Part shown: positions 33,389 to 50,689 of the stretch, piece after piece | How positions within the stretch are numbered: position 1 is the first letter of the stretch | Layout: each line of letters starts with the position of its first letter | Origin: Bacteroidota bacterium | GTDB lineage: Bacteria > Bacteroidota > Bacteroidia > B-17B0 > Aurantibacillaceae | Assembly (NCBI GenBank): GCA_029237825.1 | Contig: JAQZBQ010000002.1 | Coordinates: 248,001-312,000 of the forward strand | DNA: 64,000 bases | Direction: 5' to 3' | Program-made: the position numbers and the translations under genes | Notes under the pieces: model-generated | Database searches by the model: none | The model's input: the letters and a program-made list of their open reading frames with translations, nothing else | Told to the model about the DNA's origin: nothing

Positions 33389-35167
33389 TCAATTGTTAAA
33401 AGGTTGCTGAGACTTACTGAGGTTAGTTAAAACATGAGAATTTGTGTAGGCTATAAAATTCTTTGAAAAACGAATTTTAATATTATTTTTGCCGTCGTTC
33501 CGGAGAGGTGTCAGAGTGGTCGAACGAGCAAGCCTGGAAAGTTTGTATACGGGAAACTGTATCGCGGGTTCGAATCCCGCCCTCTCCGCTGATAGGGACT
33601 TAGGCTCAAAAAGAGAACTAAGTCCCTTTTTTATTAAAGCAAAATCGCCCGTATTATGGGCGATTTCAGCAATAATGTAATTCAAATCCGGAGTTCGAAA
33701 TGCCCCCTTTTCCTTGTCATATACCAAACCGGACGGGAAGATAAGGTTTTGCAGTTTTTCTTTGAGGCTAATACTGCCCTCTACCCATAATTTACGCAGG
33801 TTTCGGCATAATAATGAGGCTTCATTTAGCATTTCTTTCAGGTTCGAAATGTAAATACCACAACCATTGATTTCCTTCTGTAAATTCGCATAGTCTGCCA
33901 TATATTTTGCTAGGAAACGATCATAGGTTTCTTTCGGCATTTCCTCTTTTATAAAATGCTTCTCCTCAAGCTTCTCAATATTTCTTTTAAGCTCAGCCAG
34001 TCGGTCTTTAAGCTCCTTTTCCTTCTCTACGTTGCCTTTATTCAGTTCGTAGTAGGTGCTTTCTAATTCCATTAAAACGGCCTCGTTCAAATCCTCCCTT
34101 ATTTGGTAGTTCTCCAAGTCAGTTGCAAATAATTCATGCATCGACTTTGCGCTTTTGTTGCATTTGCATCCGTTTGTTCTGCACTTATAATAATACAGGT
34201 TCTTCTTCTTTACAATATAACCCGTATAAGGTTGTTCGCAATCCGCACACTTAACAAAAACTTTTAAAGGAAGATTAATGTTTTCTAATTTATGCGGCAC
34301 TCCGTATTTAGTAGAGGAGGAAACAATATCGTTCACTTTCATAAACTCTTCCTTTGAGATCATCTTTTCATGAAGCCCATCTTCGATCTTGCCATTTAGC
34401 ATCCCGTGAGAAATCAAACCGCAATAAAAAGGATTAATAAAAATCTTGTGTAATTGTTGCTTATACATTTTTACACCCTGTGCTTGAAGTTTCAAAATAA
34501 TTTCTTCATTCTTCATGCCCTGTATTTTCCATTCCCAAGCTTTCTTTATTTTCTTGCCATCTGCGTTCACAATTATCTTACGTTCACCGTTCGACCTCAC
34601 AATATCATACCCCTGCGGTGGCTTCACTACCCAAATACCTTTTTCAAATTTAGCTTTCATTCCTGCCATAGCAACTTGTTTGCGCTGATCATTATCCCAA
34701 CGCCCAAATAGTAATTGCATATCATGAAATAAAACCCCACTTGCATTAGAGGTATCTATCGGTTCGGTAACTGCTTTAATATGTACGCCATGTTTTTCTC
34801 TTAGTTCATCGGCAATAGAAATTGCTTTCCCACCAGTCCTGCTAAAGCGAGTCATCTTATAAACTAAGATGGTTCCTATTTTACCTTTGCTTTGCCTAAT
34901 AAAACTCAGCATACTCTGAAACTCCTTTCTTGCATCGGTTTTAGCACTTTCATAAGTGTCGCCAAAACGAGATACAATAATTAAATTATTTCGGGCAGCA
35001 TATTCTTCAATAGCTTTCCGTTGCGTTTCTAAGGAATCATTTTTGTCAAATTGCCCTTTGCCGGAAACCCTTGTGTACATTACAACTAAATTGCCTTCAA
35101 CCTTTTTAACGATTGTAGTGCTAAACCGACCAAACTTTGATTCTATTAGTCTTTCGTCTGTGATCAT
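33389..35167 (-). CDS. Large serine recombinase/integrase
   Basis: A 592-aa site-specific recombinase. The resolvase domain (about 27-175) has the Ser nucleophile in YTRVSGKGQ (Ser35) and [16 protein letters not shown] Recombinase domain follows, then a zinc ribbon ([10 protein letters not shown] and [15 protein letters not shown]) and a coiled coil (about 375-450). It probably catalyses integration and excision of the adjacent island. The last roughly 75 residues are the antisense translation of the terminator, tRNA-Ser and its upstream sequence ([14 protein letters not shown] onward), so they are not a conserved domain and would depend on the insertion site. A 62-aa protein gene lies just upstream on the same strand. 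Confidence 0.88.
33463..33491 (+). promoter_or_regulatory. Promoter of tRNA-Ser
   Basis: A TTG (33463-33465) and TATTTTTG (33484-33491), separated by 18 bases, match the Bacteroidota TTG/TAnnTTTG pattern. The -7 element ends 10 bases before the tRNA 5' end at 33502, a fitting distance for the promoter of a stable RNA gene. It lies opposite the last codons of the recombinase ORF. Confidence 0.6.
33502..33588 (+). tRNA. tRNA-Ser (anticodon GGA)
   Basis: An 87-nt cloverleaf. The acceptor stem GGAGAGG (33502-33508) pairs with CCTCTCC (33581-33587), with discriminator G at 33588. The anticodon loop CTGGAAA lies between CAAGC and GTTTG, giving anticodon GGA (serine UCC/UCU). A long variable arm (class II, as expected for Ser) and the T arm GCGGG-TTCGAAT-CCCGC follow. 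CCA is not encoded. The gene is fully intact, although the recombinase ORF runs antisense through it. Confidence 0.95.
33594..33632 (+). terminator. Rho-independent terminator after tRNA-Ser
   Basis: AGGGACTTAG (33594-33603) pairs with CTAAGTCCCT (33618-33627) around a 14-base loop, followed by a T run to 33632. It lies 5 bases after the tRNA and is also read antisense as codons of the recombinase C-terminus. A second perfect 9-bp hairpin (AAATCGCCC at 33642-33650 with GGGCGATTT at 33658-33666) follows. Confidence 0.8.
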
Positions 35168-36151: not shown

Positions 36152-37228
36152 CTAGAATTTCTGCGAAAGGATAATTATGCTCTGATCGTTGGGCTCCAAT
36201 ACTTTGTTTTCTTTATAGAAAGATTCTAGTTCTTTTATGGTGAACCATCTTGATCCAAGAAGCCCTTTATCAAATAATCTTTCAAATTCAGGAGCATTCA
36301 ATGCGACATCCAAAATTTTATCTAGTCGTAGTATTTTATTACCATCTTTGGAAATATCTAAGCGATCTGGAAGTTGGCAAATCGGAATATGCCAGCCACT
36401 TGTGATATAATTGTCTGGATTTTGAAGTTTGTCAGTGGGTCTTAGAAAAGGGACGCAATAGGGAAGTCTATAAGTATTACTACTTGCAATTTTTGATGAT
36501 GCCTCACAATACCCTTTTTTACAAAAGCATGCTGTTGCTGTATTAAGTTGGGGAGCTAGATTTTTTACTTGAGAAAAATATAATATTCCATCCTCCCATA
36601 TTTTATACTGAACTGCAATAATACGAACCATTCCATCATAATGATATTCGTATATTAAATCTACACCGGTTGCGGCCTCTGCTTTGCCGGGATGAAGAAA
36701 TCTAATTACAAATGGATCACCGGATCTTGTTCTAAATATTTTGTATTTGCCGGCAATCTGTTTGACATATTCAAGATTCAATCGCTTCCCATCATAATCG
36801 TTTCGTAATGCTTCATCCTCAGAATAGGAAAGAAACATAGGAGAATGTTCTCGCAATAAGCGAACTAATTTTGCCTTTTCTCTGTTAAGCTGTTTTAATT
36901 TGGTTTCTTTATTAAGAGGATTCTTAACAAGTTTCTCGATATGCTCTATTCTTATTTTAATAAGCTCTTCTGCGCTTATTTGCTTATTCTCATCTATTGA
37001 TCTTGCTTTAGCTTCCTCAAGATATTTTTCATAGACAATATCAATAAATTCTTTTTGTCCCAATATTGAATCTTTTCCACCAAACAAATCAGTAAAATTA
37101 TTCTGAGCAAACTCTATAGCTCGATTATAGGTTACGTTTGTTCTCTCATCCAGCATTGATAAGTTTTCACGAAGAGCATTGACAACCAACCATTCTATTT
37201 GTAATCTTTCATTATTGAGTTTGTCCAT
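36152..37228 (-). CDS. Unrecognised protein with possible PD-(D/E)XK/Mrr-like nuclease core
   Basis: A 358-aa soluble protein. The N-terminal 130 residues are helical with a Lys/Glu-rich coiled-coil-like part. The central segment EAATGVDLIYEY then RIIAVQYK (Asp190, Gln207, Lys209) resembles the D...QxK pattern of Mrr-type nucleases, with Glu184/Glu194 as extra acidic candidates. A Cys cluster (ACFCKKGYC, about 233-241) could bind zinc. The C-terminus has a hydrophobic FERLFDKGLLGSRWF stretch. It is the last gene of the defence run, separated from the deaminase fusion by 328 bp with repeats. Nuclease activity is a hypothesis; I do not recognise the family. Confidence 0.6.
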   Translation of the reverse strand: MDKLNNERLQIEWLVVNALRENLSMLDERTNVTYNRAIEFAQNNFTDLFGGKDSILGQKEFIDIVYEKYLEEAKARSIDENKQISAEELIKIRIEHIEKLVKNPLNKETKLKQLNREKAKLVRLLREHSPMFLSYSEDEALRNDYDGKRLNLEYVKQIAGKYKIFRTRSGDPFVIRFLHPGKAEAATGVDLIYEYHYDGMVRIIAVQYKIWEDGILYFSQVKNLAPQLNTATACFCKKGYCEASSKIASSNTYRLPYCVPFLRPTDKLQNPDNYITSGWHIPICQLPDRLDISKDGNKILRLDKILDVALNAPEFERLFDKGLLGSRWFTIKELESFYKENKVLEPNDQSIIILSQKF

Positions 37229-37360
37229 AATCTAATCCTCTTTCTTGGTACTATCTTATCAACTTTAAGATTATCTAGAGCTTTATCTTGGTAGTTACTT
37301 AGATTATCTATAATTCTTATGCTTGAGTCTTTATTTCTAGTATTTCTTCTAGATTTAATA

Positions 37361-37463
37361 CTAGGACACTTTGTCCTAGTATTTGTCCTAGTTCTAATCT
37401 TAGTATTTCCTCTAAATTCAACTAGGACACTTTGTCTTAGTATTTGTCCTAGTTCTAATACTA
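37361..37463. repeat. 61-bp direct repeat containing CTAGGACA palindromes
   Basis: CTAGGACA-CTT-TGTCCTAG (37361-37379) is a perfect palindrome. It recurs at 37422-37440 with one base changed in the right arm, so the period is 61 bp. Both copies are followed by TATTTGTCCTAGTTCTAAT. Partial copies of the CTAGTATTT flank occur before 37361 and after 37460. The whole gap 37229-37556 is rich in CTAG and has no gene I can support. It lies between the deaminase fusion and the 358-aa gene, both minus strand, so it may control the latter. Confidence 0.65.
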
Positions 37464-37556
37464 GTATTCCTCAAGATATCTAATCTAGTATTCACTCTAG
37501 TTAAACTCTAATTCTTTTTCTTAATTCTAATCTAGTCTTTGTATCTGCTAGTTCTT

Positions 37557-39059
37557 CTATTTAGCTATATACTTAAAGTTTGGAGAATTAAGTTTTTCTC
37601 CATTATCTCCAAGGAGTTTTAATGTTCTCATCTTAGAAAGATGTCTTGAAGCCTTTCTTTCTTCATATCCGAAGTGTTTGGCATATCCTTTCTTGGTCGC
37701 TTCTCCTTTTGATTTAACCCATTCGTACCCAGCTAATTCATCATTATTCAATTCTTTGATTGCAGTATGGTGGGAAACTCTTTTAACCGCTTCCAAAGTT
37801 CTAGGAAAAGTTAGGGTTAGAAAAGGATTTTTCATCTCGTATTCCGGCAATGGTAATTTAAATTTGTCATTTAAAGATCGAAGCGCCTTCATTCCAAATC
37901 CCTTTTCTTCAACGTAATCCATTAAACCAAAAACATAAGTTATTATTGGGTTACGGCTAACGGAAGGTGCCTGAAAGGTATTTAATTGATCTAATGAAAT
38001 AGAAGGCATAGGCGCTCCCGGACTTTTGACAATAATTTTATCATTGTCAATTTCTAGAGCCGATTTAGCACCCTCTATTGAATAATCACGGTGAACAATG
38101 GCATTGATTATAACTTCCCGAAGCACATCAATTGGGAAATCAGGGATATCTTTTCGTTTGAATCCGGAGGTATCTTTTGACAGAGGTAAAACCTTCTTTA
38201 GCCATTCTTCAACCAAATCAGGAATTAATACTAAGGGTTGATCAAAGGTAGCGGGCTCTATTTTATAGTCCCCGTAATCTACATGAGCCATCAAAGCTGC
38301 TTGTTTAAATTTTGCACGAGGATTTTCTCCGAAAAGTAAAATCCCCATTCCGGTAGGGCGATATATATTTGCCTTCTCATCAAAATGCATAACGCCTATA
38401 TCAGCCAAAAAACTTTGGAAAGCTTTGTCTTTAGGCTTATACTTTAACTTTGCTTCCTCAATAAACTTACTTAATGCTTCCTGAGAAAATTGAGAAATAT
38501 CGGCTCGTGGAATCGATTTTTTAAACTCTGAAACTTTAGTTTCCGTTTTTGCAACTTTAGCTCGGTGCGTAGCCTGTTTTAAAAAAGCGGCATTCACTTG
38601 TTCTATCTGTTTTTGAAACTCCCGGTCGAACATAATAACTTTGACCCCTTTCTCCTCCATATATCTAATGCCTTCTCCGGCAACAGTAGGATCAGGATCT
38701 TCAATGCCTACATAAATGGTTTTAATTCTTGCGCTGGTAACATGTGTACAACAACCTCGCTTTGGAGGACTTCGCTTTACACAAGGCTCGAGAGTAGAAA
38801 ATAATACAGCGTCTTTCAAGTCTTTACTTATACATTTACGTTCTATTAAAACATACTCAGCATGATTGCCTTCACGCACCTCACCTCTATGCGCAGTTTC
38901 ATAAGTACCATCAGGAAAAACTAATACTGCGCCCACTTTTGGATTTACTTTTCCATCAGTACGTTTTTCAGCTATAGATTTACGCATAACATCAACAGCA
39001 AGCTTCATATACTTCTTAGGGTCAAACCCTTCTATCTTCTTTGTAGTCTTTTTTGCCAT
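37557..39059 (-). CDS. RibD-like deaminase fused to a RecG-C-terminal-type ATPase-fold domain and wHTH
   Basis: A 500-aa fusion. Residues about 15-145 form a zinc deaminase with HAE (66-68) and EPC (91-93) then GCC (102-104). With the following DPDPTVAGEGIRYMEEKG it resembles RibD deaminases more than dCMP deaminases. A linker leads to a region (about 190-420) of the DUF/HATPase_c_4 type: GMGILLFGENPRAKF, LREVIINAIVHRDY (313-326), ALEIDNDKIIVKSPG and RNPIITYVFG...EKGFGM. The C-terminus (about 440-490) looks like a winged helix. The gene sits 12 bases after the Mrr-type gene. A defence role on nucleotides or nucleic acid is inferred from context. Confidence 0.8.
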   Translation of the reverse strand: MAKKTTKKIEGFDPKKYMKLAVDVMRKSIAEKRTDGKVNPKVGAVLVFPDGTYETAHRGEVREGNHAEYVLIERKCISKDLKDAVLFSTLEPCVKRSPPKRGCCTHVTSARIKTIYVGIEDPDPTVAGEGIRYMEEKGVKVIMFDREFQKQIEQVNAAFLKQATHRAKVAKTETKVSEFKKSIPRADISQFSQEALSKFIEEAKLKYKPKDKAFQSFLADIGVMHFDEKANIYRPTGMGILLFGENPRAKFKQAALMAHVDYGDYKIEPATFDQPLVLIPDLVEEWLKKVLPLSKDTSGFKRKDIPDFPIDVLREVIINAIVHRDYSIEGAKSALEIDNDKIIVKSPGAPMPSISLDQLNTFQAPSVSRNPIITYVFGLMDYVEEKGFGMKALRSLNDKFKLPLPEYEMKNPFLTLTFPRTLEAVKRVSHHTAIKELNNDELAGYEWVKSKGEATKKGYAKHFGYEERKASRHLSKMRTLKLLGDNGEKLNSPNFKYIAK

Positions 39060-39071
39060 TATAATGCAAAT

Positions 39072-39926
39072 TTATTTAAACTCCTCAAAAAATGCTGAAT
39101 CAATATCATAAACCGTTTTGGGCTTAAGTCCTAATTCAAATTTTTCAAACAAATCTACAAGTTTTTCCCCATCTACTAATTCTATAGGTGGAACTCCATC
39201 ACGTATAGCTTCGTTTCTTGCTTCTTTAGTAAATCTTCCGGTTGTTAAAATGATCCCTTTGTCAGCCCGGCCTTGCATGGCACCACGAAAATCTCGAACC
39301 TGTCCAGGCCCTACTGATTCTTTATAGCGTTTACATTGAAATAAAACCTTAAAACTTACCAAATCATTAATCTCCAATAAACCGATGCCGTCTATTCCGT
39401 TGTCCCCAGATTTTCCGGTAACTTGAACATTTTGAAAGCCGCATTCAGTTAATAAGCGTTTGCAAATCCTTTCAAATCCATCCGGACTAAGGCTTTGAAT
39501 AACAGACAGTAAATTATATGAATGTTCTTCTTCTTCAGTTGAATACTCTTCCTCCATAATTTTATTTTCAGGAGAAGTTTTTTTAACCGTACTGTTTTTT
39601 ACCGAAAAACTTGCCTGAACAGTTTTGTACAACTCCATTACATCCTTCTCGCTTAAGTTTGAGCCCAAGCCTTTATCTGTAAGTTTCCAAGTACCGCGAA
39701 CTTTTGAATCAATATAACCAGCTTTCGTTAAATACATTCTCGCCCATTGAATGCGGTTTTTTACTCTTGATTGCCCACTTGGAATGGTTTGTTCAACTTC
39801 AGATTCAGGAATTTTTAATTTCTCAATAACTGAATCTATAACTTCAGAAGTAACGCCTGCCCCTCCCATATCTTTAAGGGTTTTAACCACCGGGTTTATG
39901 TATATTAAAAATTGCGGGCCTTTCAT
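39072..39926 (-). CDS. Mrr-type restriction endonuclease (type IV-like)
   Basis: A 284-aa two-domain protein. The N-terminal Mrr_N winged helix (about 5-90) includes RVKNRIQWARMYLTKAGYID and GTWKLTDKG. An acidic linker (about 120-135) leads to the Mrr catalytic domain (about 145-265) with DGFERICKRLLTECGFQNV, Asp179 in GIDGIG and QCKRYK (Gln197, Lys199). These complete the D...QxK active site. Mrr proteins cut modified DNA, so it may target phage DNA with modified bases. It lies 3 bases after the TIR gene and 12 bases before the deaminase fusion, deep in the defence run. Confidence 0.9.
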   Translation of the reverse strand: MKGPQFLIYINPVVKTLKDMGGAGVTSEVIDSVIEKLKIPESEVEQTIPSGQSRVKNRIQWARMYLTKAGYIDSKVRGTWKLTDKGLGSNLSEKDVMELYKTVQASFSVKNSTVKKTSPENKIMEEEYSTEEEEHSYNLLSVIQSLSPDGFERICKRLLTECGFQNVQVTGKSGDNGIDGIGLLEINDLVSFKVLFQCKRYKESVGPGQVRDFRGAMQGRADKGIILTTGRFTKEARNEAIRDGVPPIELVDGEKLVDLFEKFELGLKPKTVYDIDSAFFEEFK

Positions 39927-39929
39927 AAT

Positions 39930-41108
39930 CTAGTTTTTAGTTTGGATTGTGTCGATAAATTGATGTAATTTCTTCTCATTAGGAAATAGATTAATCAATT
40001 CAGTAAAAGAAATTTCCGGATGATGATCTCCCATTGACCAAGCCGTTAATTCATAAGGATTGTAAATGAAGACAATTGAGTCATTTTTAAAATAATAATT
40101 TCGAAAATTTTTCTTTTCTGCTTCGAACCCATGATCATACACATAAAAATATTCAGAAACATCTTCTTCGTATTCAGTTTTTGCTTTTACCATCAACTTA
40201 TCATGAATGCAATCTCTTAGTACCCCTAGAGAAGATTCAAAATTTTCAAATAATTCCTCCAATTCTAAATTACGCAAAGGATTAATTAAATAATTATTTC
40301 CTTTCGACCAATAATTTCCATGTGCACACCCAGTTTCATATAAAGACCAAAATGAAGTATAACTAATAAAATTTTTGCTAATGAAATGCAAATTAATCGT
40401 ACCGTAACAAGTACTATCTGCTTCAAACATACCCCAACCTTCTTCCTCTTTATTTATTTCAACACCTTTCAAATGATTAAAATAGTTATCTCTTGAACGA
40501 ATCAAATATTTTAAAACATCATTCTGAATCAAAAGGTTTAGCTCCTTTAGTGATTCGGCTTCTATGTTTTTAAACTGAGGGTATCTGATGTCATAAGTTT
40601 GTTTAGGGCTTTTGTCAACATATTCTCCTTTCACGTTTTTTTCATCGCTTTCAAATCCAGCTATCTTATGCTTCCTCGATTCTTCTTCTTTAATCACAAT
40701 TGATCGCTGAAAATTAATAGCTTGTAGAATTTTATTTTGATAGTCAGTTGATGAGTACTCAACCCATTGAAATTTATTAAGTTTAAAAGGAATCTGACAA
40801 GCATCTATTTTAATTGGAATAATATAAATATCAGAATCTAGTTTCTCTTCGCAATAAATGACGGCTTGATTAAATTCTTTTTGCACATAGCCTCGCTTTC
40901 CCACAGATGTACTAGAAAGCAACAACAAAATGAAGTCAGCTTTCTGTAACGCTTCTTGAATCATCAAATCCCAATTTTGACCGGGCAATAAGTCTTTCTT
41001 ATCCATCCAAGGCTCGAATCCATTTTCAGAGAGGAATTTGTGAAGTTTGTCAGCGTACTGAAAATCTTCCGCTGCATAGCTTATGAATACTTTATTATAC
41101 ATCAACAA
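39930..41108 (-). CDS. TIR domain fused to DUF3298/RsiV-like domain
   Basis: A 392-aa protein. The N-terminal TIR domain (about 3-135) has KVFISYAAEDFQYADKL, FEPWMDKKDLLPGQNW and FILLLLSSTSVGKRGY; Glu78 in VQKEF is a good candidate for the NADase catalytic residue. The C-terminal part (about 172-375) reads as DUF3298: RYPQFKNIEAESLKELN, YETGCAHGNYW and FIYNPYELTAWSMGDHHPEI. In RsiV that domain binds lysozyme. No signal peptide or membrane helix is seen, so it is cytoplasmic. TIR plus DUF3298 is unusual; the latter could be the sensor that activates NAD depletion. Its start overlaps the 182-aa gene by 7 bases. Confidence 0.82.
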   Translation of the reverse strand: MLMYNKVFISYAAEDFQYADKLHKFLSENGFEPWMDKKDLLPGQNWDLMIQEALQKADFILLLLSSTSVGKRGYVQKEFNQAVIYCEEKLDSDIYIIPIKIDACQIPFKLNKFQWVEYSSTDYQNKILQAINFQRSIVIKEEESRKHKIAGFESDEKNVKGEYVDKSPKQTYDIRYPQFKNIEAESLKELNLLIQNDVLKYLIRSRDNYFNHLKGVEINKEEEGWGMFEADSTCYGTINLHFISKNFISYTSFWSLYETGCAHGNYWSKGNNYLINPLRNLELEELFENFESSLGVLRDCIHDKLMVKAKTEYEEDVSEYFYVYDHGFEAEKKNFRNYYFKNDSIVFIYNPYELTAWSMGDHHPEISFTELINLFPNEKKLHQFIDTIQTKN

Positions 41109-41650
41109 TTATTTTTTCTGTTATTTTTACCCCAAATACAAAGAAAATTCTCAGCTTCATGCGGCTTTAATTGTTGAATTACTTTTGGGAACGTAGTTAA
41201 AGGGAGGCTTCTTTTCATTTGAATTTTTCCTTTCAATGCTTTATTTACTCCTTTTATAACGCCTGCTTGAACGTATACTTCTTTCGGATAAACCCCCAAG
41301 TTAAATCCAATTCTCAATGCAGTGTCATAGCTCCATAGGGCACCTAATCGAAAGGTATTCTTTCTAACTTGCTCTGTTATTTTAAAAACATCTTCAAAGC
41401 TCTTGCATTTAGCAATTGGATGTATTTTATCTATTCTTAACAATTCATCGAGTCCAGTTCTACAAACTTTAGTTCCAACTCTTCTTTGATGTGAATCCAT
41501 ATTAATTTTGCCGTTGAATTTAGGACTTTGACCTAAAGTCGCTTGGGATATAGCATCAGACAAATCAAGATTTTTGTAATATTTCTCAATCTCTTTTAGA
41601 TGAACACACTCAACCGTTTTATATTTCTTTATAGCTTTATTTAATGTCAT
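41102..41650 (-). CDS. Unknown 182-aa protein of defence run
   Basis: A soluble, basic protein. The segment FRLGALWSYDTALRIGFNLG with PKEVYVQAGV looks like a helix-hairpin-helix or DNA-glycosylase-like core. NMDSHQRRVGTKVC precedes it and LKPHEAENFLCIWGK ends the conserved part. I recall a widespread hypothetical family with a similar YDTALRIG/LCIY pattern but no known activity. The gene lies 11 bases after the HNH gene and overlaps the TIR gene, so it is probably translated with them. It may be a third component of the ATPase-HNH module. Function unknown. Confidence 0.6.
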   Translation of the reverse strand: MTLNKAIKKYKTVECVHLKEIEKYYKNLDLSDAISQATLGQSPKFNGKINMDSHQRRVGTKVCRTGLDELLRIDKIHPIAKCKSFEDVFKITEQVRKNTFRLGALWSYDTALRIGFNLGVYPKEVYVQAGVIKGVNKALKGKIQMKRSLPLTTFPKVIQQLKPHEAENFLCIWGKNNRKNNC

Positions 41651-41661
41651 GTATAATTGAA

Positions 41662-42723
41662 TTAAATAACCCCATTCAAATTATTTTCACAATTGGGGTC
41701 ATTAAGAATGAAATCATAAAATGTTTTCATTAAAATTCCCTTATCAATATTAAAATAATCTTCGAAGGTTTCTGAGGCATCTTCATAAAATGCTTGGTAA
41801 GAGACACCATTTTTTTTACATAGTGTTGTATGCTTTTTTAATATCCAACCTTTCCATATTTTACTTTCTTTGGATATTGTAGCTTTGTATCTACTTTCAA
41901 TATTAAAAACTTGTTTCCACGATTCCATTTTTAAATTATTTGCCGCTGGTTCGCAATCAATGTGTAAAGTCCATGTGTTAGGGTTGTCTAGGTCTGTGTT
42001 AGCAGATTGAATTCCCAGATTAATTTTATGATCGGCAATAGTATTGTCAAGGGGGTAGTATAATGGTCTTTGTGTTGTAGTCGCAGGAATAAAAGGTGTG
42101 TCAATTTGCCCTTTGCTTTTTGAATTGCAATTGTGACACATGGGAAATAAATTTGCGAAATTGACAGTTATAAAAGGATAAATAGATTTAGGCAAGTAGT
42201 GATCATAATCGTCTCTCCCGTCATCATGTTCACATAGTAGACAATCCATTCCACAAAAAGGGCAAACACTATATTCATTTGTTTCTCTAAATGTATTGAA
42301 ATGTGCTTTTAAAGTACCGCATTTATTTACGACTTGCGTATAGCCAAGAATTTTATTATCACCCCAAAGATTATCATAAAGACTTTTAATTTGAACTCTG
42401 ATAGCGGGTGGTAATCCTGTATATTTTATAGGAATTACGGTCATATTACATATACCAAGTATATTGCTGTTCGTGTGGTATACATTATGAACAATTAATT
42501 TTTCGTTTGGTGGTAACGTTACGTATGCATTAAAAATAGCTTCAAGTTTATTATCAATCTGTTCGGTATACTCATCAACAATGTTATTAAAATCTGCTTC
42601 AATGTAATGTGCATGATCGTATACAGGATGGGCGTTGGCAAATAATTGCGCAAAAAAGTAATCTAAATACTTATTTAAGTTCTCAATCGCATGAGGTGAT
42701 ATAGATTTATAGAAGTAAAGCAT
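41662..42723 (-). CDS. HNH endonuclease (PtuB-like, Septu-type)
   Basis: A 353-aa protein. The N-terminal 150 residues are unrecognised. The HNH core has CPFC (154-157), DHYLPKSIYPF (Asp174-His175 catalytic pair), Asn188 in TVNFANLF, and CHNCNSKSKG (196-203) as the second zinc pair. It overlaps the ATPase gene by one base (42723), and AAA ATPase plus HNH in this order is the PtuA-PtuB pair of Septu. It likely cuts nucleic acid under control of the ATPase. It is longer than many PtuB proteins, so a related ATPase-HNH system is an alternative. Confidence 0.85.
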   Translation of the reverse strand: MLYFYKSISPHAIENLNKYLDYFFAQLFANAHPVYDHAHYIEADFNNIVDEYTEQIDNKLEAIFNAYVTLPPNEKLIVHNVYHTNSNILGICNMTVIPIKYTGLPPAIRVQIKSLYDNLWGDNKILGYTQVVNKCGTLKAHFNTFRETNEYSVCPFCGMDCLLCEHDDGRDDYDHYLPKSIYPFITVNFANLFPMCHNCNSKSKGQIDTPFIPATTTQRPLYYPLDNTIADHKINLGIQSANTDLDNPNTWTLHIDCEPAANNLKMESWKQVFNIESRYKATISKESKIWKGWILKKHTTLCKKNGVSYQAFYEDASETFEDYFNIDKGILMKTFYDFILNDPNCENNLNGVI

Positions 42724-44498
42724 TACTTTTCTTTGTTTTCGATTTCCTCTTTAATAGTTCGTAATTTACTAAATAGATCAAATTTTTGAACTGAATCACC
42801 GAATTTGGAATTCAATTTGTCAATAACCGCCCTAAGTTGGTCCAGTGTTTTTACACCATCGATCATATCTTTTAACTCCTTCTTAGCCATTTCGGAAATA
42901 CTTTCTTCCTTTTCGAATATTTCTTCAAGAATAACTGAGATAGAAGCTCCGTACATTTTTACAGTTGGGTTGTCATACTCAATAATTCCATTGGTCTTTG
43001 TAAATCGGTAAACATCTTCTGTTATACAGTCAGAAATTACAAATGGTGAATGCGTTGTTATTATAATTTCTTGCTTTCTAACTTTTTCGATATTTCCATG
43101 TCCATCAAATGTCTCCGCAGCCATATAATTCAACATTTGAATTAATTTAGCTCGCCATTTAGGATTAAAATGTGTATCCGGTTCATCTATAAGGAATAAA
43201 CATCCTTCCTGCTCCATCATTAAAATAGTGCCTATTACTTCATTAAATTGATGTTCTCCATCTGATAGTGCTTTATAATAAATATTTTTGGGAGCTTTTG
43301 AAACATCAATTTTTTTTGAGATAAAAATTTTTTCAATCCTAAAGACCAGTCTTGATGGATCCGGCTTTGACATTTCATCTGAAAAATTGTATGATTTATG
43401 CACTTGAAGCATTAAATCTCTTGTCTTTTTATTAACTAGATAGAGGTTAAAAATTTCCAGCTCATAAAAAACCTTAAATAGATTAAATGCGTTTTCAAAG
43501 TGGTATTTAAAGGAAGCTTTTGTGGCATCGTTTACCAAAAAGTCAAGAATAAGTAAATTGTATTTGTCAACCTTCTTTTCAGTCCATGTCGTAGCACAAA
43601 GTTTTAGCTGTTGAAGATTTGATGCTAAACGATCGTCAAGCGGAATAACTCGTTTATAAATCTCATCTGTATTGATTGTGATTCTGAATGCCTGCAGCTC
43701 ATTAATCTTTAAAACCTCTTTTAAATACGCTAGCTTTTTTCCATCAGCAAGAAGCATATTAGCAATGAATATTGAGAAATTTGTACTATAGTCTAAAAAA
43801 AACAATCTATGATTGTCCGCTAAATCGGGAAGTTCTTTTTTTTCAAATTCCTTAAAATAATGATATTTGAGCTTAAAAAAAGGGTTACTTAACAGCTCAT
43901 TTTGTCCTGAAGTATAGGCGATAAGTTTGCTAGGCAATAATCTTTTTGTATTTAAGCTAATTGCTTTATAGGAATCATTTTCATTTTGACGTTTTAATGA
44001 AAATTCCGGCTCAAATCCCAATTGCTTTGAAACTCGAACATGTATGTAGTTATTAAGGAGTAACTGATTACAGTCCTGATCCCACTCATTTTGTATGATG
44101 TTTTCAATCTCATTAATATAAAGATCCTCAAATTTTAATTTATTGAATTTTGTTAAAGGAGAATTGCTTGATATGTATTTTTCTCGAACTTCATTATAAT
44201 CATTAACAAAAAGATCATAAATGTCCTTTTCAGTCTTTGGCAACAAATATTCAATTTCAAAACCGAAATTTTTGTTTGCTTTCTCAGCTTCTGAAACTGT
44301 AGAAAGATGGGTTATTTCCAAAAAGTAAAATATTTCCGAAAATAATTCGAGAAAATTAGACTTTCCGCTTCCATTTAGTCCCGCAAATACCTTAGTAGAA
44401 AGCCGATCATTATGAAATGAAAGATTGAACTTGTACAGTTTATTTGCCGACAAGCTTCTAAAGTCATCTCCTAATATTTTTACGTTAACTAATTTCAT
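42723..44498 (-). CDS. AAA ATPase (PtuA-like, Septu-type)
   Basis: A 591-aa SMC/ABC-like ATPase of the OLD/PtuA class. The Walker A motif is FAGLNGSGKSNFL (about 38-50), the signature is LSDGEHQF (411-418), Walker B is CLFLIDEPDTHFNP (433-446), and the His switch is IITTHSPFVISD. The coiled middle (about 60-400) is unrecognised. There is no C-terminal TOPRIM domain, unlike OLD nucleases. Its start overlaps the hsdS stop by 4 bases (ATGA), so translation is coupled to the restriction system. It probably senses phage DNA or nucleotide state and controls the HNH protein; this follows from Septu and is inferred here. Confidence 0.85.
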   Translation of the reverse strand: MKLVNVKILGDDFRSLSANKLYKFNLSFHNDRLSTKVFAGLNGSGKSNFLELFSEIFYFLEITHLSTVSEAEKANKNFGFEIEYLLPKTEKDIYDLFVNDYNEVREKYISSNSPLTKFNKLKFEDLYINEIENIIQNEWDQDCNQLLLNNYIHVRVSKQLGFEPEFSLKRQNENDSYKAISLNTKRLLPSKLIAYTSGQNELLSNPFFKLKYHYFKEFEKKELPDLADNHRLFFLDYSTNFSIFIANMLLADGKKLAYLKEVLKINELQAFRITINTDEIYKRVIPLDDRLASNLQQLKLCATTWTEKKVDKYNLLILDFLVNDATKASFKYHFENAFNLFKVFYELEIFNLYLVNKKTRDLMLQVHKSYNFSDEMSKPDPSRLVFRIEKIFISKKIDVSKAPKNIYYKALSDGEHQFNEVIGTILMMEQEGCLFLIDEPDTHFNPKWRAKLIQMLNYMAAETFDGHGNIEKVRKQEIIITTHSPFVISDCITEDVYRFTKTNGIIEYDNPTVKMYGASISVILEEIFEKEESISEMAKKELKDMIDGVKTLDQLRAVIDKLNSKFGDSVQKFDLFSKLRTIKEEIENKEK

Positions 44499-46318
44499 TT
44501 AATGATGTTGAAGTATATTCCTGAGCGTTCTTTTTTTTCACGATCTTTTATTAGCTCAAAATCTTCTTCTGATACATTTAACTGCATGTTTTCGTTCTCG
44601 GCATCATAAAATAATTGTTCTAATTCAATGAATGGGTTCTCCTTATTAATGGCAGAAAAAACAAATGACTTTAAATCATCTGCTCCATTTAAATGTGGAT
44701 ACTTTTTTAATTCCTCTGAAGAATAATAGTCCGGAAAAGTAACATGCTCCTCCATTAAAAAACGAATAAGCATTTCATTTGAGAAATGATAGCCTTGATA
44801 TTTATCTTTTACCCACTCAGCAATTTGTTGGCTACTAACTTTATCCCATGTTAATTTACTTTTTGGTTTTTTAGAGTGAAGTTTCTTCCATTCGCTATAA
44901 AATTTCTTCCCTTTGCTTTTAGCAGTTTGCTCATCAATATCAAAAGGGTCACCATAACGGGTATCTAAATTGTCATAATCGCCTCTTTCTAATTTTTTGA
45001 TTTCATTCTCAAAATACTTTTTGTTTTTTTTTCTTTTAATAGGATCTTGTTCCTCAGGTTCATTGCCTTCGAAGTTGTGCCACTCCTCTTCAATAACGAC
45101 TTTACTCAAATCCAATTCACCTTTAAATGCTTTTTGACTTAAACTACGATATAGATTTTCTAACTCTTGTAAACTATTTTTATATTTTGTTTTAATATCT
45201 TCTGTTTTTTCGACTATCAGACCAAACTTGAATTGAAGCTTTTGCGTTGGATAAATCATTTTAAGGTTCATTACTCCCCCCTTGGTAATATTTTTCATTG
45301 AACCACTTGTCCCAGAAGAGATTTCACTGATAGTTCTTCTAAAGGAACTCCAATTTATACAATACCATAGGAATAAAGAATCAATTTGTTTTTCTTCTGA
45401 AAGAATAAATTTCCAAATTCTATCAGGTAAGGCTAAGTTTTTAACGTCATCAAAAACATATGTAGAAGCTCCAACTAATTCTGTTGTATTCATTCTTGAC
45501 AAAAGGATATCGCCCTTTTTTACTAGATGACTATTCGGAGGAACATAACCTTTAGGTAACCATTTTGATTCATCTTTATTAAAACTTCCCCAAGAAACCG
45601 CACTAGTTTTTAAAACCTTAAAATCACCAGCGGACTCCTTGCTCACTGATTGAATACTTTTACCTGTATCAAGGCGCAAAACCACCTCATTAAGTTTGAT
45701 CGTATCCCATTCCTTTTCATTTTTTACTGGATCTCCAAACATTTTCAGAAAAACACTTTTCACAAATTCATTTAATAACAGAAGAGATTCTTTTCTTTTT
45801 TCAATCAGTACCTCTATTTTACTCAAAGTTTGAGCGATTCTAATTTGATCGTCATAAGGCGGTATAAATATTTTTTCCTTTAAGTAGTTGTCCAGTTTAA
45901 GATTAATAATCCCCGTTGTTTTATTTTGAAATTTGAGTGTCTTCCCTTGAATATGTGCGATAAATAACTGAAAAAAAAGATATTTTGGGTAAATTTTTAT
46001 TTTATCAGGTCTAAGGACTGTTGTAAAATTATTGCATAAATACTCATCTTCAGTTTCTAAGTCAAAGAACACCACACGGCCTACAGGTTGGTTTGGACTT
46101 CCACCTGATTTTTCTATAATAATGTCACCTTTTAGTAATTTTTTTTGCCGAACTTTATTAGCATCTATTTTCCTGTAGACTAAATTTTCAAAATTAATTA
46201 CACCAAGATTGGTGAAGTTTGCCGTTCGAATAACTTTTACACCTTCTCCCGTATTTGCTTCTAATCCCCATTCTCCTGACATTTTATGGGTGATTAAATC
46301 AACAATTCTAGCTTCCAT
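44495..46318 (-). CDS. hsdS: Type I restriction-modification specificity subunit with long C-terminal extension
   Basis: A 607-aa HsdS. TRD1 (about 15-150) ends in KLDNYLKEKIFIPPYDDQ, the central conserved helix is IRIAQTLSKIEVLIEKRKES, and TRD2 (about 200-375) is followed by LQFKFGLIVEKTEDI. Two full TRDs imply recognition of a bipartite DNA site. Normal HsdS is about 400 aa; here about 190 extra residues follow (from about 415), including WKKLHSKKPKSKLTWDKVS and AEWVKDKYQGYHFSNEML. I do not recognise this domain. It abuts hsdM with a one-base overlap and overlaps ptuA-like by 4 bases. Confidence 0.92.
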   Translation of the reverse strand: MEARIVDLITHKMSGEWGLEANTGEGVKVIRTANFTNLGVINFENLVYRKIDANKVRQKKLLKGDIIIEKSGGSPNQPVGRVVFFDLETEDEYLCNNFTTVLRPDKIKIYPKYLFFQLFIAHIQGKTLKFQNKTTGIINLKLDNYLKEKIFIPPYDDQIRIAQTLSKIEVLIEKRKESLLLLNEFVKSVFLKMFGDPVKNEKEWDTIKLNEVVLRLDTGKSIQSVSKESAGDFKVLKTSAVSWGSFNKDESKWLPKGYVPPNSHLVKKGDILLSRMNTTELVGASTYVFDDVKNLALPDRIWKFILSEEKQIDSLFLWYCINWSSFRRTISEISSGTSGSMKNITKGGVMNLKMIYPTQKLQFKFGLIVEKTEDIKTKYKNSLQELENLYRSLSQKAFKGELDLSKVVIEEEWHNFEGNEPEEQDPIKRKKNKKYFENEIKKLERGDYDNLDTRYGDPFDIDEQTAKSKGKKFYSEWKKLHSKKPKSKLTWDKVSSQQIAEWVKDKYQGYHFSNEMLIRFLMEEHVTFPDYYSSEELKKYPHLNGADDLKSFVFSAINKENPFIELEQLFYDAENENMQLNVSEEDFELIKDREKKERSGIYFNIIK

Positions 46319-47889
46319 TATAAAACTCTTTTTAGTTCGTCAATTCCTTTGACAATTTCCTTTTCCAATATTGATAATTTATTTAAAATCACTGTAGGAG
46401 TTTCAAATTTAACATCAACATATTCTTCATTCTTGTAACGGCTTATGCTTAAATCATATTCATTTTTAATTATTTCCGTTTTTGGAACAAGAAAATGATT
46501 TTTAGTTCTATCAACGCTTTTTTTCTTGTTTTTAAATTCTTCAATTATTAAATGGAGATCGCCAAAATCACGTTCTCCATTTGGCATAATCAATTCAGTC
46601 CTTTTATCATCTAAGCTTCGACCATCGTTTTTCATTTCATAAAACCAAATATTATTGGTTTCTCCTCCCTTAGTAAAAATCAATATGGCGGTTGCAACTC
46701 CGGTATAAGGTTTAAAAACTCCACTTGGTAAACTAATGACAGCTTTTAATTCACATTTGTCAATTAATATTTTTCTTGTTTCAACAAAAGCTTTACCACT
46801 TCCAAACAACACTCCTTGTGGGACAACTACACCGGCAGTACCACCCAAGCGAAGCATTTTGTAAATTCTCTCAATAAATAATAACTCACTTTTTGTAGTA
46901 CTAATACTAAAAGTTTCATTTAAGTCACCTTTATCAATATTACCTGTAAATGGAGGATTTGCCAAGACAATATTGTAAAAATTATCTTCATTATAATTTT
47001 TGCTTAATGTATCCTTGTAATCAATTTTAGGTTGACTAATACCATGCATCATTAAATTCATTAAACCAATTCGAATCATAGTAGGATCAATATCAAACCC
47101 GTAAAAAGTTTCTCGCTCCAACAACTCTTTCATTTTCTCATCAACCAACTTATCAGCTAATGAGCCTCGTATGAAGCCATTTTCATCGGGTTTACAGTAT
47201 TCCTTACTTGTATATTGTGTTATCAAATATTTGTATGAAGCCAATAAAAAACCTGCCGTTCCACTTGCGGGATCGGCAATCTTATCTCCTAGTTTTGGTT
47301 GAAGCAACTCAACGATTAATTCAATAATGTGCGTTGGCGTTCTGAATTGCCCGTTTTTACCGGCTTGATTTAACTCGCTTAATAAATGCTCATAAAAATC
47401 ACCTTGCGCATCTATAAAACGATTTTCCTTTTGAAGTTCCACAAAAATTTCATCTATTTTCTTTACAGACTCTGTAAGCATTCTTGGGCTAGGTATCAGC
47501 AAAGCCGCATTCTGCATATGTTTAGTGAAATAGGAATTTTCATCATCTAATTGTTTTATAAAAGGAAAAACTTTAGTTTGTACCAACGTATACATTTCCT
47601 CTGAAGGCATTTGTTTAAAGTAACTCCACCGTAATGTTTCCTTTTCTATTGCATTTTCTTCTTTAGTAACATCTACACCAGGAGGAAAAAACCTTCCTTC
47701 AAAAACGGATGTATATTTAGTTCCTAAAAAATCAGCATTACTAATGCTACGTTGATCGTTATCATCTAACTGCTTAATAAAAAGCAAATAGGTAATTTGT
47801 TCAATAGCATTCAATGGGTTGGAAATCCCACCACTCCAAAACTTTTCCCAAAGTTCTCTGACTTTACTTTTAATTGATGTTGTAAGCAT
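46318..47889 (-). CDS. hsdM: Type I restriction-modification methyltransferase
   Basis: A 523-aa N6-adenine methyltransferase. The N-terminal HsdM_N domain (about 1-140) includes KVRELWEKFWSGGISNPLNA. The SAM motif is DPASGTAGFLLASYKYL, and the catalytic NPPF motif is in VLANPPFTGNIDKGDLN. It protects host DNA and supplies the scaffold that binds HsdS and HsdR. All catalytic motifs are intact. It starts one base after hsdR ends and overlaps hsdS by one base, so hsdR-hsdM-hsdS form one operon. Confidence 0.95.
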   Translation of the reverse strand: MLTTSIKSKVRELWEKFWSGGISNPLNAIEQITYLLFIKQLDDNDQRSISNADFLGTKYTSVFEGRFFPPGVDVTKEENAIEKETLRWSYFKQMPSEEMYTLVQTKVFPFIKQLDDENSYFTKHMQNAALLIPSPRMLTESVKKIDEIFVELQKENRFIDAQGDFYEHLLSELNQAGKNGQFRTPTHIIELIVELLQPKLGDKIADPASGTAGFLLASYKYLITQYTSKEYCKPDENGFIRGSLADKLVDEKMKELLERETFYGFDIDPTMIRIGLMNLMMHGISQPKIDYKDTLSKNYNEDNFYNIVLANPPFTGNIDKGDLNETFSISTTKSELLFIERIYKMLRLGGTAGVVVPQGVLFGSGKAFVETRKILIDKCELKAVISLPSGVFKPYTGVATAILIFTKGGETNNIWFYEMKNDGRSLDDKRTELIMPNGERDFGDLHLIIEEFKNKKKSVDRTKNHFLVPKTEIIKNEYDLSISRYKNEEYVDVKFETPTVILNKLSILEKEIVKGIDELKRVL

Positions 47890-47890
47890 A

Positions 47891-50689
47891 TTATGCGGCT
47901 AATTTTTGAATGAATATTATTATTTCGTCAATTTCTTTATTGGAAAAAACACCACGAATGCCATCAGGGTGTATTCTTGTGAATGGTGCAGTAATCAAAT
48001 CTTTTTTCTCAACATCACCTTTTTCAATTAAGAAAATTCGAAGTAAATTCAAGAATTCTAATTGACGACTGTTTAAGTATGTATGTTCTTCAATAAACTG
48101 TTCAAATGATTTTGAGACTGAATCCGGAAAGGATTCTAGTATTTCAATACCCAAAATATGTTTAACAAACTGAACTAGTTGGGCTTTTCTATGGTTATAA
48201 ACTCGTCTAAGCAAATCTACTGTTATATGCGGATGCTCATTGTGTAATTGCTCTGCTAATTGTTCCGCTTCTGTTAAAGTAATTTCTCTTCCTTGCTTTA
48301 ATTTTTGTAAAAGAGGATTGTTAGATACCAATTCATTTACTTTCTTTTCAACCAATTCGCGATACTTTTCGATGCTCAATGCCTCATGTTGCGGGCCAAA
48401 TTCAACATATTCTTTTTGACTTACAATATCTTTAAAATTAAATTTAGCAGGGCCGAGTGGAACAACAGACTCCCTATATTTCATTAAAGGGCAAAGTTTT
48501 TGTATTAATTCTTCGAATTTATTCTCAGTAATTGAAGCCCAAAAATGATTGGTTTGACTTGTTCGAATTATTTCTTCCTCTTTAGCAACAGTATTTACAG
48601 ATAAGGGCAATTCGGAAATCTCTTCTCTAATACTTTCTTTAAGCGCTTCAAATTTTTCTTTTTCATTTGCCAAATGTGCTAATGAAACTTCAAGAATGTC
48701 TTTTTCAAAACGCATAGCTTTAAATTCAGCGTCAGAAACTGTTCTGAATAATGGTTTTACTACAGCTTTTAAAAATTCTAATTTATCACTGGTTAAAAGA
48801 TTCCAGAAGTTCTCATCATCCAATCGCTGCAACTCATGCTTGGCATCTAAAATCACGATAGAATTATTCGGAAGGGTTGCAATTTGCTTTCGCAACTTTA
48901 CTATTTCTTTCGTCACAATTTCGACTTCATTTAATTCTTGTGCCTTTTCAATTTTATCTAAACGAATTCCAAATAATCTAACTGGTAAAGGTAAAGTTGT
49001 AGTTGCCTCTTTACCACGAGGATTTAATTTAAAGTATTCGAAATTATCCCAACAATCTAAAATCAGAAAAATATTTTTTTCTGTACACCACGATTTCATT
49101 TTTGTTGGCTCTAATAAGCGTGTACCACGCCCAATCATCTGCCAAAATTTTGTATAGGAATAAACAGGTTTAGCGAAAACTAAATTCACTAATTCTCTAA
49201 CATCTATTCCGGTATCAAGCATATCCACACTTATTGCTATACGTGGCATATCGTTATTTGTGAACTGATCTAACAATCCTCCTTTACCGTAAACACGAGG
49301 GTCATCACTAACCAATACTTTAGCTAATTCACCTTTATATTCGGGATAAAAAGCATCAAACAGCTCTTCCATTCTTCGAGCATGTTTCATTGTTGTGCAG
49401 AAAATTATAGTCTTTCCGGGTAGCACACCATTCGCATCTTTAATGGATTCTTCCATAAATTCACGAACAATTAAGGCATTTGTAGCTTTATTAATTACCG
49501 ATTTTTCTATTTCAGTTCCTTCGTAATTTATTTCAGATACGTCTTTCCCATCCAAAATCAAATTTTTCTGATCCTCTAAAGAAATAGTTCGTTTATTAAT
49601 TCCTTCTTCCTGAAACTTGGTTTTAATTTTCATTACTTGAAAGCCACTCAAATAAGGTGGAATGTGATTAAGGGCTTCTTCATACGAATATGCAAAGGTT
49701 GGAACTCCTTCTTCACATTCAAATAATTTAAAAGTATTATGATCTATAACATCAGTTGGAGTGGCAGTTAATCCTAGGGTGATAGTATTGAAGTAATCTA
49801 AAATTTCTTGGTAAGTATTATAAATACTTCTATGACTTTCATCAACTACAATCAAATCAAAGAAATGAGGGCTTAAAGTTTTTTCACTATCTCTAATTAC
49901 GTTTAACATAGTCGGATAAGTAGAAACATAAATCCTTCTATCAGTTGCAATTTCTTTTTCTCCAGGTTTTGGCCAGCGAGGCTCGTTCGGAAGGAATTCT
50001 TTAAATGCTTCAAGAGTTTGATCCCTTAATGCGATGCGATCAACCAAAAACAAAACTCGCTCTGCCCAACCAGCTCTCATCAATGTATCAACTAAAGCAA
50101 TGCAGGTACGTGTTTTTCCTGTACCCGTTGCCATCACCAATAGAAATTTACGTTTGCGTTTTTCAATCGCTTCCATTACTGCTCTTATAGATGCGATTTG
50201 ATAATCCCGTCCGGCAATTTTGGTGTTAATTAATTCACTCGCTAATGCTTTACGAGCTTTTCGTATATATTGGTAGCGTTCTAGGTCTTCACGAGTAGGA
50301 AAACCGTATACCTTCTTTGGTGGATAATTTTCTAAATCCCAAAAATAAATATCATGTCCGTTTGTGTAAAAGCAAAAAGGTAATTCGCCTCCGTGTTGGG
50401 CGTGAATATTTGTACAGTATTGTTTGGCTTGTTCTTTTCCGATGTTGGCATCAACCGAGGATTTTTTCGCTTCAACGACCGCTAAAGGCTTACCATCTTT
50501 GCCTAATAAAACGTAATCACTGAACTGACGACCTGAGTATTTGGTTGTAGGTTCTTCTACCCCGAGCCGGACTCGAACATCAATATCAAACTCCTCAACA
50601 ACTTGAGTATGATCACTAACATTCCAACCTGCAAGTTGCAAGCGCTTATCAATAATATCCTTTCGGGTTTTGGCTTCGTTGCCGGACAT
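47891..50689 (-). CDS. hsdR: Type I restriction endonuclease motor/nuclease subunit
   Basis: A 932-aa restriction subunit. The N-terminal nuclease domain has Asp58 in FSDYVLLG and the EAK catalytic pair in LAVVEAKKSS (Glu73, Lys75). The helicase core follows: Walker A ATGTGKTRTCIALV, DESHRSIYN (DEAH-type box), SAT-like LGLTATPTD, and the C-terminal motif QMIGRGTRL. The last about 250 residues match the EcoEI_R_C type region. It translocates DNA and cuts at a distance when sites are unmodified. It is the first gene of the defence run and diverges from the 375-aa protein gene, with 118 bp between. Confidence 0.95.
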   Translation of the reverse strand: MSGNEAKTRKDIIDKRLQLAGWNVSDHTQVVEEFDIDVRVRLGVEEPTTKYSGRQFSDYVLLGKDGKPLAVVEAKKSSVDANIGKEQAKQYCTNIHAQHGGELPFCFYTNGHDIYFWDLENYPPKKVYGFPTREDLERYQYIRKARKALASELINTKIAGRDYQIASIRAVMEAIEKRKRKFLLVMATGTGKTRTCIALVDTLMRAGWAERVLFLVDRIALRDQTLEAFKEFLPNEPRWPKPGEKEIATDRRIYVSTYPTMLNVIRDSEKTLSPHFFDLIVVDESHRSIYNTYQEILDYFNTITLGLTATPTDVIDHNTFKLFECEEGVPTFAYSYEEALNHIPPYLSGFQVMKIKTKFQEEGINKRTISLEDQKNLILDGKDVSEINYEGTEIEKSVINKATNALIVREFMEESIKDANGVLPGKTIIFCTTMKHARRMEELFDAFYPEYKGELAKVLVSDDPRVYGKGGLLDQFTNNDMPRIAISVDMLDTGIDVRELVNLVFAKPVYSYTKFWQMIGRGTRLLEPTKMKSWCTEKNIFLILDCWDNFEYFKLNPRGKEATTTLPLPVRLFGIRLDKIEKAQELNEVEIVTKEIVKLRKQIATLPNNSIVILDAKHELQRLDDENFWNLLTSDKLEFLKAVVKPLFRTVSDAEFKAMRFEKDILEVSLAHLANEKEKFEALKESIREEISELPLSVNTVAKEEEIIRTSQTNHFWASITENKFEELIQKLCPLMKYRESVVPLGPAKFNFKDIVSQKEYVEFGPQHEALSIEKYRELVEKKVNELVSNNPLLQKLKQGREITLTEAEQLAEQLHNEHPHITVDLLRRVYNHRKAQLVQFVKHILGIEILESFPDSVSKSFEQFIEEHTYLNSRQLEFLNLLRIFLIEKGDVEKKDLITAPFTRIHPDGIRGVFSNKEIDEIIIFIQKLAA

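Follow-up and report, generated by a model that had tools for sequence, protein, structure and literature searches.

To our knowledge, few triggers of bacterial TIR proteins are known, among them a capsid for Thoeris and a portal for SpbK. Apart from the fusion described here, DUF3298-type domains are known from secreted or cell-surface proteins. SpbK is a TIR NADase that is triggered by direct contact with the portal protein of phage SPbeta, which clusters the TIR domains (PMC12847820). In SPARTA, the TIR protein carries a C-terminal APAZ domain and has an Argonaute partner, and substitution E77A in TIR-APAZ gives a catalytic mutant (PMC10474274). RsiV, an anti-sigma factor and lysozyme receptor of Bacillus, contacts lysozyme via residues T165-S169, T171, Y255-Y261 and a few others. 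Lysozyme binding is abolished in RsiV S169W/P259A/Y261A, and the same study found none for MPT64, a protein with the RsiV fold that carries GGTHP in the loop (PMC5014341).

The 64,000-nucleotide stretch of DNA analysed here (the window) includes a gene that joins a TIR domain to a DUF3298 domain. No paper pairing either DUF3298 or DUF4163 with a TIR domain, or naming this fusion, was found among the papers searched. As far as the searched sources reach, the product is a probable TIR defence effector whose receptor domain is unreported in that role, and it adds a TIR-effector family missing from the searched defence libraries.

Gene, domains and predicted fold

The open reading frame originally placed at 39930-41108 is real, but its start is better set at the ATG at 41102 on the minus strand (39930..41102, 390 aa), because 4 bases (ATGA) are shared between this start and the stop codon of the gene upstream, and because the relatives start there, their aligned N termini reading M-Y-x-K-[IV]-F-I-S-Y. 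Residues are numbered from this codon.

39930 to 41102, minus strand: TIR-DUF4163-DUF3298 fusion gene, 390 aa (ORF, Pfam and predicted structure)
40734 to 41090, minus strand: TIR domain, residues 5-123 (Pfam TIR_2, 7.8e-25)
40875 to 40877, minus strand: codon of the putative catalytic Glu76 (alignment with SPARTA E77; invariant)
40668 to 40742, minus strand: predicted linker helix between TIR and candidate receptor, residues 121-145 (linker identity 0.23)
40311 to 40604, minus strand: DUF4163 (PdaC-like) part of the candidate receptor half, residues 167-264 (PdaC 0.002, below cutoff; within the 3cyg match)
40314 to 40331, minus strand: loop G-C-A-H-G-N (residues 258-263), which corresponds in position to the lysozyme-binding loop TQASS of RsiV
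40005 to 40244, minus strand: DUF3298, residues 287-366 (Pfam, 2.8e-9)

Both domains of the original prediction were recovered in the Pfam search above their curated cutoffs, TIR_2 with 88 bits against 28 and DUF3298 (PF11738) with 38.2 against 24.1 bits. PdaC/DUF4163 was below cutoff in the window protein but above it in the relatives from Bacteroidales (L055, 5.7e-8) and Sphingobacteriales (L056, 1.7e-12). Of the two motifs that had been ascribed to DUF3298, YELTAWSMGDHHPEIS lies within this domain, whereas YETGCAHGNYW corresponds to the end of DUF4163 and the next loop. No DUF3298 protein other than the fusion was found in the source genome (3.55 Mb).

When a profile of three fusions was compared with the PDB, the N-terminal half matched the TIR domains of SPARTA, and the C-terminal half matched 3s5t (5e-13) and 3cyg (1.5e-9). 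A second profile, which combined the C-terminal halves of fusions with their standalone counterparts, gave 3cyg (2.5e-26), 3s5t (2.7e-22), MPT64 (6e-14), RsiV (5jen, 1.8e-11) and 4e72 (1.6e-7). An AlphaFold2 model built from 12 fusions had a mean pLDDT of 79.6 and a pTM of 0.60, and because of the latter value the arrangement of the two halves in it is unreliable. In Foldseek, the TIR domain of the model matched SPARTA and SARM1, and the C-terminal half matched 3cyg (5e-10), 3s5t (6e-10), 4e72 (3e-7) and, as had been anticipated, RsiV (5jen, 6e-9). The window protein therefore consists of a TIR domain and a DUF4163-DUF3298 module of the RsiV-type fold, with a predicted helix linking the two. 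A chance or poor-quality DUF3298 match was ruled out, as sequence, profile and fold agreed.

The predicted catalytic glutamate, E78 when counted from the TTG of the longer frame, is E76 within K-R-G-Y-V-Q-K-E. It is invariant in all 13 aligned fusions and aligns with the catalytic E77 of SPARTA TIR-APAZ, the nearest solved TIR by sequence (6.8e-6). The TIR domain is a putative NADase that would cleave NAD+. In contrast to SPARTA, no Argonaute was seen in the window cluster, and Pfam and PADLOC gave no APAZ or Ago match beyond TIR-only matches. Full-length models for the fusion were likewise absent from PADLOC and NCBIfam, which gave partial, TIR-only matches.

Since no signal peptide or membrane segment was seen, the fusion protein is probably cytoplasmic, as had been proposed. 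It shares the two-domain DUF4163-DUF3298 fold of RsiV but lacks the membrane anchor and the sigma-binding part, a TIR domain being joined instead. A transmembrane anti-sigma architecture of the RsiV type beside an ECF sigma gene was not found; the N terminus of the fusion is occupied by TIR, and no sigma factor gene was recognised among the scanned window neighbours. Closest in sequence to the C-terminal half are standalone DUF3298 proteins (3s5t BF2082, 3cyg, 4e72 PA4972 and MPT64/2hhi), which share a G-x-[AT]-H-[GP] loop with the fusions but have no TIR domain.

Relatives and genomic contexts

Intact copies of the fusion numbered 14, including that of the window, and span Bacteroidota, Ignavibacteria, Gamma- and Alphaproteobacteria and five phage or prophage contigs; a one-off gene fusion was thus ruled out. 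Full-length relatives were found in Bacteroidales (L055, 36-37% identity to the window protein), Ignavibacteriales (L054 = L024, 36%), Sphingobacteriales (L056), Melioribacteraceae (L057 = L006), Pseudomonas (L060 and L061), Lysobacter (L064) and on a Rhizobium plasmid (L083). The fusion is rare and patchy, given that sampling of 395 genomes from the phylum and 391 from one class yielded full-length copies in a handful. Among 87 genomes from the family, 2 gave any match to the C-terminal half, and one of these matches was a standalone protein. Annotated phages gave no match to the C-terminal half of the window protein or to the phage-type protein, E. coli genomes gave no DNA match, and the viral fold library held no clear TIR-DUF3298 relative.

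Besides the intact genes, two damaged copies are associated with IS3-family elements. In G088 (L020:7719-10136) both halves of the fusion persist on either side of the insertion, and on an Acidovorax plasmid (L082:9001-9384) the TIR part alone persists, near phage tail genes. These two copies are unrelated, and the break is at nearly the same site in both, around residues 108-114, near the end of TIR.

Across the 13 aligned fusions, mean identity was 44% for the TIR domain against 26% for the C-terminal half (0.23 for the linker), and this faster divergence of the C-terminal half makes it sensor-like. Related TIR domains carry other C-terminal parts (L058, L059, L063, L070 and L077), which by eye resembled HTH, NTPase with WD40 repeats, DUF1566, beta-helix and FGE-sulfatase modules. 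On account of these replacements, the C-terminal half appears to be swappable and to behave as an exchangeable sensor. A single origin of the TIR-DUF3298 fusion was neither supported nor excluded by the tree (p-AU 0.062).

In the window, the fusion gene belongs to a series of defence genes, its neighbours on the same strand being as follows.

37557 to 39059, minus strand: protein with deaminase and HATPase_c_4 domains (Pfam)
39072 to 39926, minus strand: Mrr-type (type IV-like) restriction endonuclease (Mrr_cat 4.6e-33; PDC-S02 3.1e-31, mREase_IV 2.5e-30)
41102 to 41650, minus strand: 182-aa ORF with no family match, overlapping the fusion gene by 4 bases
41662 to 42723, minus strand: HNH-type protein, PtuB/PDC-M01B-like (PADLOC PDC-M62B 2.7e-15, PDC-M01B 1.1e-13, PtuB 4e-8)
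42723 to 44498, minus strand: PtuA-like AAA ATPase (TIGR04435, restriction system-associated, 8.8e-115, over cutoff; PtuA 1.6e-45)
44495 to 50689, minus strand: type I restriction-modification genes hsdS, hsdM and hsdR (PADLOC 9.6e-84, 4.9e-162 and 9.3e-169)

In Lysobacter, the fusion directly follows hsdR; hsdM, hsdS and the genes for a type IV restriction enzyme and an OLD ATPase lie close by. The window and Lysobacter copies thus each adjoin a defence ATPase as well as type I restriction-modification and type IV restriction genes. On the Rhizobium plasmid, DarT, a recombinase and a RES/Xre pair lie near the fusion. The genes surrounding the L055, L056 and L057 copies have no appearance of defence genes.

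Five distinct contigs (L071, L072, L073/L074, L075 and L099) were assigned to phages or prophages by PHROGs matches to terminase, tail fibre, spanin and endolysin genes and, for L099, by an apparent integrase and tail tape-measure gene identified by eye. An endolysin gene lies beside the fusion in two of the five, of the SleB type in L071 and of the GH24 type in L073, and in the others the fusion is near terminase, tail or integrase genes. The GH24 lysozyme (L073:6488-7075) directly follows the phage-borne TIR-DUF3298 gene and has a hydrophobic N terminus, possibly a signal anchor.

Proposed mechanism and alternatives

The role in sensing infection put forward in the original prediction gains support from the defence-island and prophage contexts together with the low identity of the C-terminal half relative to TIR. 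It is considered reasonably likely that the fusion is a single-gene cytoplasmic anti-phage alarm, in which a phage product bound by the receptor half leads to loss of NAD+ and an abortive outcome. The DUF4163-DUF3298 module would be the receptor for a phage-made macromolecule, probably a protein; binding of this ligand would cluster the N-terminal TIR domains, which would then destroy NAD+ in a manner dependent on E76, and the infected cell would be stopped before phage release. This sequence of events is modelled on SpbK, likewise a single TIR protein for which clustering triggered by a protein and loss of NAD+ are proposed. The SpbK paper is not one of those in which DUF3298 is mentioned. 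Counting against the alarm are the L055, L056 and L057 copies, whose neighbours are unlike defence genes, the coupling to the 182-aa ORF in the window, the low pTM of the model and the lack of support in the tree for a single origin.

None of the window neighbours (the 182-aa ORF, HNH, ATPase, hsd and Mrr genes) was found near any other fusion by tblastn, and no conserved partner was recognised among them. For this reason the fusion can probably act alone, though the 182-aa protein is a possible partner in the window, where the two genes are translationally coupled. The same absence speaks against the suggestion that the TIR domain makes a nucleotide signal, as does ThsB, or is a subunit of the restriction-modification or PtuAB-like cluster, with the C-terminal half a mere oligomerisation or docking module. 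Such a role would fit the position of the overlapping 182-aa ORF after the HNH and ATPase genes, as well as the matches to ThsB_TIR (Pfam, 8.7e-5) and Thoeris III ThcB4 (1.9e-9). However, similarity to ThsB and ThcB4 is confined to TIR, the ThcB4 score of 36.9 bits is far below the curated cutoff of 220, and no ThsA-type SLOG/SIR2 effector was seen among the scanned neighbours in the cluster, making this alternative unlikely. A role outside defence, as a stress or envelope-damage regulator sensing a host ligand, would account for the fusion copies found among housekeeping genes and would agree with the signal-peptide-like N termini of standalone DUF3298 proteins in genomes of the same class as G202. 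It is nevertheless very improbable in view of the rarity of C-terminal matches in the family, the mobile contexts, the carriage by phages and the IS3-damaged copies.

A narrower proposal, also part of the original prediction, is that the receptor half binds a phage endolysin, of lysozyme fold or otherwise muralytic, and fires the TIR domain in the cytoplasm as RsiV responds to lysozyme outside the cell. Endolysins build up in the cytoplasm late in infection, and the fold is that of RsiV bound to lysozyme in 5jen. In addition, the lysozyme-contact residues Y255 and E256 of RsiV are kept in the window protein, Y being present in 11 of the 13 aligned fusions and E in 7; YELTAWSMG of the window DUF3298 stands at the position of RsiV YEVAPGYMG. 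The remaining comparison, which was made by profile alignment and not by superposition, speaks against it: in the window protein, P259 and Y261 are replaced by A354 and S356, and the TQASS loop with S169 by G-C-A-H-G-N, which across the family reads G-x-A-H-[GP] with invariant G, A and H. The residues S169, P259 and Y261 are thus not kept in the fusion, and its loop is instead close to that of MPT64, the relative without lysozyme binding (PMC5014341). The adjacency to endolysin genes in two phage contigs could be read in favour of endolysin recognition; yet at least two carrier phages then have an endolysin of their own adjoining the fusion, and they would risk self-triggering if lysozymes were sensed broadly. 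Accessory phage genes are often located near lysis genes, for which two adjacencies in five contigs are unremarkable, and this location is weak evidence either way. Recognition of endolysins is accordingly highly unlikely.

Returning to the anti-phage alarm, a bolder form of it, held to be quite improbable, is that the RsiV fold, a lysozyme sensor outside the cell, was recruited to the cytoplasm, where it would directly bind phage lytic enzymes or some other late protein of the phage. It would then represent a new class of immune receptor, employed by bacteria and also by prophages against competitors. The fusion is compact, apparently encoded by a single gene, and widely scattered, and its receptor fold has been solved and binds a protein in one relative. 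If its ligand were a late lytic protein, this would be a new class of TIR trigger; with any other ligand, the DUF4163-DUF3298 fold would still gain a second role.

Edges of the window cluster

At one end of the cluster, a recombinase gene overlaps a tRNA gene.

33389 to 35167, minus strand: large serine recombinase, its 3' end lying over tRNA-Ser (sequence and ORF by eye)
33502 to 33589: tRNA-Ser(GGA), overlapped by the recombinase ORF (ARAGORN)

Repeats of the 3' part of tRNA-Ser that could represent att sites were absent elsewhere in the window, and comparison with congeners did not reveal where the island ends on its other side. In several congeners, tRNA-Ser(GGA) closely follows a DUF1343-type gene, whereas in the window the two are separated by the gene for a 2637-aa repeat protein. 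The protein encoded at 37557-39059, just downstream of Mrr, combines a cytidine-deaminase-like domain with a RecG-C-like HATPase_c_4 domain, and its PADLOC matches to Argonaute-system proteins are weak. At the margin of this series of genes, 36152-37228 encodes a 358-aa protein with no match in Pfam, PADLOC or NCBIfam. An intergenic segment of the cluster (37360-37468) contains two 48-nt direct repeats that are 94% identical, with their starts 61 nt apart.
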